DNA of 64,000 bases, taken from the NCBI GenBank assembly GCA_002840555.1, contig PHBJ01000008.1:62001-126000 (forward strand). The letters are read 5' to 3'. The notes under the pieces were generated by a model that did not search any database, was not told where the DNA came from, and saw only the letters and a list, made by a program, of their open reading frames with translations. Numbering within the stretch: the stretch's first letter is position 1; every line of letters starts with the position of its first letter. Both the position numbers and the translations under genes were made by a program. The DNA comes from Deltaproteobacteria bacterium HGW-Deltaproteobacteria-13 (GTDB lineage: Bacteria > Desulfobacterota > Syntrophia > Syntrophales > Smithellaceae). This document shows, piece after piece, positions 4,383 to 47,622 of this stretch.

Positions 4383-4528
4383 CCCTTACTGTTTACACCT
4401 TCAAATAGTAATCCTCAATTCTAATAACTGCCCACGACTGAACAGGAGTAGGTGTTATCTATGTCCAGACAAACCATATTTTTACAATATCTTTCAATCA
4501 AACATGGTTTGAGGAGTTTTTTATTTTA

Positions 4529-4650
4529 TACCATTTTGCTTTCAAAGGATAACGAGGCGGCAAGGAGGAGGCTCCTGAGGCGTATATGAACATACGTCGA
4601 GGAAACCGACGACGATGCTAACAAAGTTAGCCGAAGAAAGCGAATTGGTA
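4529..4650. repeat. Palindromic dispersed element, family A copy 1
   Basis: 122-bp imperfect palindrome bounded by tacc (4529) and ggta (4650). It begins immediately beyond the stop codon of the minus-strand RNase HI gene (4651-4653). It matches 47503-47622 in inverted orientation, sharing blocks such as caaaggataacgaggcggc and ccgacgacga. Outer arms pair at about 19 of 26 positions, and a central hairpin is built on cgtat/atacg. See findings. Confidence 0.85.
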
Positions 4651-5061
4651 TTATATTCTTTCATCAATGGCCAGATTAGCGAGTCTGTCGGCATGACTGT
4701 TGTGAAGACGCGGGACGTGTTTAACGGCAACGGAATCAAAAGAAGCCAGCAGTTTGCGGACCTCTTTCATTAAGATCTGCAAATTTTCATTTTTGACGCG
4801 GTAGGAACCGTTGATTTGTTTGGCCAGCAGTTCTGAATCCATGTAAACTTCCAGATTCATATAACCGCGAGCCAACGCGCCCTTTAATCCCAGAATAAGC
4901 GCTCTATACTCGGCGATGTTATTGGTGCAGTGCCCCAGGTATTCCCTGCCTTCCCAGACAACACTTTCATCGGCATCCGTGATGACGGCGCCGGCGCCGC
5001 CGGATCCGGGATTGCCGCGGCAAGCGCCATCGCTGAATAATTTATAGTTCTGACTCGCCAT
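4651..5061 (-). CDS. Ribonuclease HI family protein
   Basis: RNase H-fold endonuclease expected to cut RNA in RNA-DNA hybrids. All four acidic active-site positions are seen: D in FSDGACRGNPGSGGAG, E in NNIAEYRAL, D in YMDSELLAKQ and D in NSHADRLANLA. At 136 residues it is the short YpdQ/archaeal-like form without the basic handle of E. coli RnhA, so no symbol is given. It starts 4 bp after the zinc-ribbon gene, a pairing common in several phyla. Its stop codon directly abuts repeat family A. Confidence 0.92.
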   Translation of the reverse strand: MASQNYKLFSDGACRGNPGSGGAGAVITDADESVVWEGREYLGHCTNNIAEYRALILGLKGALARGYMNLEVYMDSELLAKQINGSYRVKNENLQILMKEVRKLLASFDSVAVKHVPRLHNSHADRLANLAIDERI

Positions 5062-5993: not shown

Positions 5994-6069
5994 TGGTGGG
6001 CCCACCTGGAGTCGAACCAGGGACCTACCGGTTATGAGCCGGTGGCTCTACCAGTTGAGCTATAGGCCC
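5994..6069 (-). tRNA. tRNA with CAU anticodon (elongator Met or Ile2)
   Basis: A complete 76-nt cloverleaf with encoded CCA can be folded: acceptor GGGCCTA/TGGGCCC (one T-G pair), D-stem GCTC/GAGC, anticodon stem ACCGG/CCGGT with loop CTCATAA, T-stem CCTGG/CCAGG with TTCGACT. The anticodon CAT and A37 fit both elongator tRNA-Met and the lysidine-modified tRNA-Ile2. It is not the initiator, because the three G-C pairs of the initiator anticodon stem are absent. The GGGCCTA acceptor resembles tRNA-Ile, leaning toward Ile2, but this is unresolved. Confidence 0.93.
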
Positions 6070-47208: not shown

Positions 47209-47502
47209 ATGAAGATGTTTATGGTCGTATACGCAGAAGCTTCCGATGAAGATATTGTTGCCGCTGTGAAAGAGGCTGGATTTAAAGCCTATACCAAAAT
47301 GTGCGGGTTGAAAGGCGAAGGTGAGGAATCCGAGCCGAAACTGGGAACGCATTACTGGCCGGGAGAAAATAATGCTCTGATTATCGCGGTGGGCAATGAT
47401 AAAATTCAGCCGCTGTGCGATCTGGTAAGAAAATTAAAAGCTGAACATCCCCGCGCGGGATTAAGGGCGTTTACCTTTCCATTGGAAGAAGAATGCATAT
47501 GA
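47209..47502 (+). CDS. PII/CutA-like small protein linked to RND efflux
   Basis: 97 residues. A ferredoxin-like fold is suggested by MKMFMVVYAEASDEDIVAAVKEAGF, LIIAVGNDKIQPLCDLVRKLKAEHP and LRAFTFPLEEE. The layout resembles PII-like/DUF3240-type proteins often encoded behind RND pumps. A short central loop (KGEGEESEPKLGTHYWPGENN) stands in place of the T-loop. May regulate or sense ligands for the pump. Ends 54 bp after RND with gagg upstream; repeat family A starts right after its stop codon. Confidence 0.72.
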   Translation: MKMFMVVYAEASDEDIVAAVKEAGFKAYTKMCGLKGEGEESEPKLGTHYWPGENNALIIAVGNDKIQPLCDLVRKLKAEHPRAGLRAFTFPLEEECI

Positions 47503-47622
47503 TACCTCATCGCTTCCCGCGACTAACTTTGTTGGCGTCGTCGTCGGCTTCCTCAACGTATTAGTAATACGCCTCGTCGCCTTCTCCTGGCCGCCTCGTT
47601 ATCCTTTGGAATCGATAAGGTA
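47503..47622. repeat. Palindromic dispersed element, family A copy 2
   Basis: 120 bp from tacc (directly after the TGA of the PII-like gene) to ggta at 47622. Reverse complement of the same element at 4529-4650. Central perfect hairpin cgtatta-g-taatacg. Outer arms (tacctcatcgcttcc / taccttatcgattcc as read inward on each strand) pair well and differ from the copy 1 arms in a matched way. Confidence 0.85.

Follow-up and report, generated by a model that had tools for sequence, protein, structure and literature searches.

ERIC duplicates the dinucleotide TA, and De Gregorio et al. reportedly observed in 2005 that ERICs lying beside stop codons do so preferentially in one orientation. Also called IRU or RU-1, it is described as a 127-bp imperfect palindrome that is non-autonomous, is co-transcribed with its neighbours and has orientation-dependent effects (PMC2229807). 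REPs are given as 20-40 bp long (PMC3733652) and are described as landing sites for insertion sequences (ISs; PMC1525189). QMITE2 of Coxiella comprises intergenic MITEs, many of them in 3′ untranslated positions (PMC10969869), and the multicopy palindromic sequences of Geobacter are presented as intergenic families (PMC2700814, PMC2996986). The element studied here drew attention as a pair of copies in one 64-kb stretch of DNA (the window, meaning the whole stretch analysed). Our analysis confirms that it is a real interspersed palindrome family of Smithella-type hosts, with distant forms scattered in the phylum.

The window copies and their family

We define strand B as the strand that reads AACGAGGCGGC...GTTGAGG or GTCGAGG, and name its ends B5 and B3 (the 3′ end). 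B3 is the end that touches a gene stop in both window copies. The features are as follows:

4526-4528, no strand: left flanking triplet TTA of copy 1, a candidate target-site duplication
4529-4650, + strand: element copy 1, 122 bp; strand B is the + strand, with end B3 at 4650; model score 118.2 bits
4651-4653, no strand: right flanking triplet TTA of copy 1, the same as the left one and the complement of the RNase HI stop TAA
4651-5061, - strand: RNase HI gene, 136 aa, with Pfam RVT_3 and RNase_H; its stop adjoins B3 of copy 1
47209-47502, + strand: gene for a P-II-like protein of 97 aa, following an RND-type transporter ORF; its Pfam P-II score of 24.4 bits falls slightly short of the cut-off of 25
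47500-47502, + strand: stop TGA of the upstream gene, adjoining B3 of copy 2
47503-47622, - strand: element copy 2, 120 bp; strand B is the - strand, with B3 at 47503; 122.3 bits
47623-47625, no strand: triplet TAA at the other end of copy 2, a TNA that differs from TGA

The earlier note placed the start of the element right after the RNase HI stop, counted one other copy in the window and remarked that both adjoining genes end in Ile-stop. These observations hold: copy 1 (4529-4650) abuts the stop at 4651-4653 on the opposite strand, the span 4526-4653 being the 122-bp element with TTA on each side, and within the window blastn and a covariance model both find only the copies at 4529-4650 and 47503-47622. 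Both genes do end in Ile-stop. The shared ending looks incidental, because the ATA codon precedes only 3 of the 27 stops that adjoin B3 in three genomes, both window genes being among the 3. The arms differ between the two copies yet match inside each copy, as the note had said. Compared with shuffled sequences, strand B folds strongly (z of -7.16 and -4.39 for the two copies) and its complement more weakly (-4.45 and -1.40). Elsewhere in the window, a tRNA gene lies at 5997-6069 on the minus strand, and a promoter-like match at 47476-47503 is at chance level; its second hexamer, TATGAT, covers the stop together with the B3 base of copy 2.

The window pair is not a chance likeness, because the host genome (3.51 Mb, 29 contigs) holds 15 near-full-length copies of 109-126 bp by blastn, plus some partial ones. 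A covariance model built from these 15 copies (R1) gives 18 matches there at E 1e-11 or better, the 15 included, and the search of the whole genome and its relatives that the earlier note had proposed, run with this model, recovered a dispersed family. R1 matches occur in 30 of 40 relatives, the host genome counted, with top counts of at least 88 and at least 89 when up to 89 candidates per genome were scored; two genomes of the same genus, G007 and G008, hold 67 and 52 copies (E 1e-8). Among the 80 named loci listed, most come from Syntrophaceae, Smithella or unspecified Deltaproteobacteria; the labels Clostridiales, Paludibacter, Synergistales and Pelotomaculum, on four loci, may be binning errors. 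In a phylum-wide scan that scored up to 30 candidates per genome, 13 of 118 genomes match at E 1e-6, including the host genome and two of its own family. Distant genomes with many copies (at least 24 in G134, 29 in G154, 7 in G135, 7 in G098 and 5 in G101) keep the same core and have different arms. Element length shifts by one or two bases between copies, so that no reading frame is kept. The core pattern has no match in viral contigs, and blastn searches of plasmids, E. coli and phages found no match to the element. Rfam 15 gives a tRNA as its sole gathering-score match over the window and, with the threshold relaxed to E 1 at four loci, no match covering the element.

Variable arms around a conserved core

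It is well supported that the core is conserved and that the arms vary between copies yet remain complementary. In 153 copies, column conservation averages 0.89 for the core and 0.63 and 0.68 for the two arms. Within the arms the terminal TWCC/GGWA is preserved best, columns 3-4 forming C-G pairs in 36 and 41 of 43 aligned copies. Across 197 copies, all four Watson-Crick pair types are present at 13 of 14 arm positions. Pairs 7-14 are Watson-Crick in 1270 of 1576 cells, compared with 831 expected from independent columns, and pairs 1-6 in 1010 of 1182 (678 expected); these copies were selected out of 223 because their outer ends pair, a choice that inflates pairs 1-6 and took no account of pairs 7-14. 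Alignment A4, comprising 43 hand-picked copies (14 Smithella-type and 29 from six other genomes), pairs in 95.6% of 1148 cells versus 81.8% when shuffled, and shows two-sided change at 17 of 27 pairs versus 11.2. Its covariation score of 0.419, against 0.170 shuffled and at most 0.082 when slid, is partly favoured by a structure derived from A4 itself. The inner stem is continuous in G154, and in Smithella copies it pairs at about every third base.

The earlier note saw in the co-varying arms a sign of selection on structure, or of gene conversion. Its compensation stands between copies (0.419 versus 0.170 shuffled), but orthologous copies mostly show single-sided changes. Sixteen orthologous comparisons, partly dependent and with three sharing one site, hold 22 single-sided changes, 3 Watson-Crick doubles and 2 other doubles; the independent Watson-Crick doubles are two, in L071 versus its orthologs and in L001 versus L161. 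With the three comparisons that had been dropped as out of register or cut (L322/L007, L260/L351 and L300/L354), all 19 give 40 single, 8 Watson-Crick double and 8 other double changes, where 9.0 doubles are expected if the two sides are independent. Because single-sided changes (22) exceed Watson-Crick doubles (3), arm change at or between copying events fits the data better than selection in place.

Target triplets, stop codons and orientation

Flanking triplets give good support to an insertion at TNA that leaves TNA on both sides. In a set of 103 copies, TNA stands on the left in 72, on the right in 66 and on both sides in 54, and the two triplets are identical in 37, compared with a permutation mean of 15.3 and maximum of 29. 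Other families, represented by 50 copies, have matching triplets in 33 of them (permutation mean 11.9, maximum 22); where TNA flanks the element on either side, the match holds in 31 of 33 copies. A TNA target-site duplication thus appears statistically, from triplet matching. In an unselected set from G000, G007 and G008, just 21 of 106 copies have identical triplets. Seven element-free homologous sites are too divergent locally to settle duplication base by base: a single triplet gives the higher score only at L191 and L326, and the other five do not favour one, including L220, the element-free counterpart of copy 1, where keeping both scores higher.

Insertions also differ between species. 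We located RNase HI in 14 same-genus genomes, the host included, and within 230 bases past its stop the host alone carries a family copy directly at the stop; in G013 a shortened copy lies farther away, and in G006 there is a different palindrome. For the 97-aa gene, the host's insertion also occurs in G002; a different one, 16 bases past the stop, is common to G007 and G008, G012 has a further insertion, and G004, G005, G011 and G015 have none in that stretch. The MITE-like mobile unit suggested in the earlier note is supported by dispersed copies, matching TNA flanks and this presence and absence between species.

TAA and TGA both fit TNA, so an insertion can target a stop codon without removing it. 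Of 193 copies lying between two called genes, 47 adjoin a stop, any stop being counted, compared with 20.6 expected from uniform placement over TNA sites in the same gaps. Together with the bias towards B3 described below, this makes placement relative to genes non-random. Gene calls for copy context come from our own ORF scoring, applied to three sets: set 1 is 119 copies of G007 and G008 (E 1e-8) plus 16 from the host genome, excluding the partial L013 and L016; set 2 derives from 112 of 120 hits in other genomes (eight weak or second-strand hits dropped), reduced to 101 by removing G008 records and duplicates; and set 3 derives from 53 hits in six distant genomes, of which 50 remained once two duplicates and a weak hit had been removed and 49 have gene context. 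Copies overlapping a called gene number 2 of 135, 2 of 101 and 0 of 49.

B3 is well supported as the defined end that touches gene stops. Stops lie exactly at B3 in 27 of 83 facing gene ends versus 5 of 81 at B5 in set 1, in 19 of 52 versus 4 of 53 in set 2, and in 10 of 28 versus 1 of 29 in set 3 (pooled, 56 of 163 versus 10 of 163). Fisher P values are 2e-5, 3e-4, 0.002 and, pooled, 1e-10, and serve as guides since the copies are related. The base composition of set 1 agrees with this asymmetry without recourse to gene calls, AT content at 20-40 bp being 0.568 outside B3 and 0.665 outside B5. On the far side of the 27 B3-adjoining stops in set 1, the same triplet recurs in 8 (five TGA, three TAA). 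Tandem gene pairs hold the element in both senses equally (66 and 66, from 39+27 and 41+25). A preference of B3 for start codons, seen in set 1 (21 of 51 versus 3 of 53 at B5 within 10 bp), was not repeated in set 2 (3 of 44 versus 2 of 41) or set 3 (2 of 19 versus 6 of 18) and was dropped. Rather different copies, L002 in the host genome and the 68875 copy of L285 in G007, adjoin the stop of what is seemingly the same gene (KLKKY..LK-stop); either they are old orthologs or a single stop has been hit twice.

That the element supplied the stop codon of both window genes, as the earlier note had suggested, is highly improbable. Where a gene reads into the element it can find a stop there (15 of 83 ends facing B3 in three genomes), and the host RNase HI is one residue longer than most relatives, its stop falling one codon beyond their commonest end. 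Even so, removing copy 1 with one triplet still leaves an in-frame TAA, which makes donation unlikely there. At copy 2 donation is unneeded: the protein ends at the same terminal residue in same-genus genomes that lack the element at the stop.

Explanations and known systems

The element is, in our view, probably an ERIC-like MITE family, that is, a short non-autonomous transposable palindrome of Syntrophaceae or Smithella-type hosts, with distant forms in the phylum. It shows general MITE features, apart from a known partner: it is short and multi-copy, keeps no conserved frame and has terminal inverted repeats. A trans-acting enzyme would make a 3-bp staggered cut at TNA. This enzyme would recognise the folded hairpin and core rather than the arm sequence, or else the moving step would copy one arm from the other. 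It is well supported that a TAA or TGA target can be a stop codon and that the gene then keeps its stop; B3 would reach genes via target choice or via loss of the opposite orientation. The stronger proposal of a mover that reads shape, with free arms kept or re-copied as complements, a fixed core and directional insertion of one end on gene boundaries, chiefly stops, strikes us as rather doubtful. If true, it would be a case of DNA transposition with structure-read ends and a 3-bp duplication, in which duplicating TNA renders directional insertion at stop codons harmless.

Several alternatives bear on the same observations. The element may be an ordinary MITE of a TNA-duplicating IS, moved by a transposase that reads end sequence, with stop abutment and orientation as by-products of tolerance; we regard this as a possibility, if on balance not the expected one. 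The IS1031 group of the IS5 family duplicates TNA, and the terminal TWCC/GGWA, with its C-G pairs at columns 3-4 in 36 and 41 of 43 copies, is what the arms keep best. Against this, arms more variable than the core are the reverse of what sequence-read MITE ends predict. PF01609 enzymes, present in 6 of 8 genomes, are missing from the host genome and G008, and the inverted repeats around those of relatives do not match the family ends. Moreover, an ordinary MITE gives no reason why B3 and not B5 meets stops. Under the ERIC-like reading too, tolerance of insertion at stops leaves the one-sidedness unexplained. It is far less likely that a Y1 (RAYT) transposase moves the element in single-stranded form, as a palindrome of the REP/BIME type: PF01797 occurs in 7 of 11 genomes but is lacking in the copy-bearing G000, G007, G134 and G098, and Y1 transposition is not expected to leave matching TNA flanks. 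What recalls REPs is a hairpin with variable complementary arms and a mismatched inner stem, and the landing of an IS110-type IS in the element in G134, as ISs are described to do in REPs (PMC1525189). For the IS5 relatives, TNA is given for the eukaryotic NuwaII and ANT for bacterial IS5 (PMC4482050).

Selection in place on a structured RNA or a 3′ element, acting as stabiliser, RNase site or terminator, as proposed for ERIC, would account for the one-sided placement at stops, but we judge it unlikely. The element is better conserved than 200-bp flanks in the clear orthologs L286/L146, L326/L299, L339/L306 and L001/L161. This evidence is weakened because only detectable pairs enter the comparison; some 50-bp flanks equal the element in conservation, and for at least one member of L064/L008, L270/L137, L284/L106, L301/L344, L331/L104 and L334/L154 another copy is at least as similar as the ortholog. 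Also in favour of an RNA role, on strand B G-T exceeds A-C by 152 to 72 and by 84 to 17, although positions 5, 8 and 9 supply 81 of the 152 and the structure behind the 84-to-17 count was predicted with G-U allowed. The mRNA at stops carries the complement of strand B, the worse-folding strand, and in-place compensations are few. The earlier note's alternative of a 3′ RNA stabiliser or terminator is not supported as a general role: neither window element has a terminator-like site, meaning a GC stem with a T run after it, and the two senses are equally frequent in tandem gene pairs (66 and 66).

The ERIC-like MITE reading leaves a mover to be found. Among places listed by end pattern from seven genomes, covering a minority of those in G007, G009, G010 and G014, eight stretches were read and none holds an autonomous partner with element ends; they are copies of 177-272 bp that contain further small palindromes, or ends separated by 5-11 kb. 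A partner candidate in G134 was rejected when its five ends of one type were traced to the IS110-type IS inside the B3 arm. This IS (405 aa, PF01548 and PF02371) sits at a fixed site in that arm, with six junctions (L402 and L405-L409), and is read as a lodger in the element rather than a partner because in L405 TAA flanks the whole composite. Copies at L109, L113, L143, L144, L200, L202, L205, L334 and L412-L416 contain other small palindromes, such as CCCGATGAATCGGG and CCCGGCCTGCGCCGGG, which often occupy similar internal sites. The palindrome at L096 (82-205), whose ends resemble GGCTGTTnAAAA, has the shared central core AGGCGTAT...ATACGTTGAGGAAGC, and at L222 one with similar ends follows the RNase HI stop of G006. 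An IS at L212 carries ends GGGGCTGTTGAAAAACA.

An element on the base after a stop yields a testable rule, that the TNA target can be a stop codon and that duplicating it leaves the gene unharmed. Families with diverged arms show the same one-sided orientation at stops; it resembles the pattern reported for the unrelated ERIC, so that it may be a general rule for how small palindromes settle next to genes. The combination of a conserved core and free, co-varying arms raises the question of which enzyme can move the element.

Set beside known systems, the element lacks the features of an intrinsic terminator, the unit size and Y1 partner of REP/BIME, and a DDE_Tnp_1 partner of the IS5/IS1031 type. 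Like REP/BIME it is an extragenic palindrome and an IS landing site, but it is about 120 bp long, has matching TNA flanks and has no consistent Y1 enzyme. MITEs of the QMITE2 type share its placement at 3′ ends, whereas the element favours the exact base after the stop and one orientation, and its arms are more variable than its core. The Geobacter palindromes belong to the same broad bacterial group and are likewise intergenic, a likeness by description; the family is undescribed in the literature searched, and these Geobacter families could include a relative. The element has no blastn match in 5,426 E. coli genomes and, judged by sequence, is not a member of ERIC. It resembles ERIC in size, in placement and, as ERIC is reported to behave, in orientation at stops, with the triplet TNA in place of the dinucleotide TA and with hosts in another phylum.
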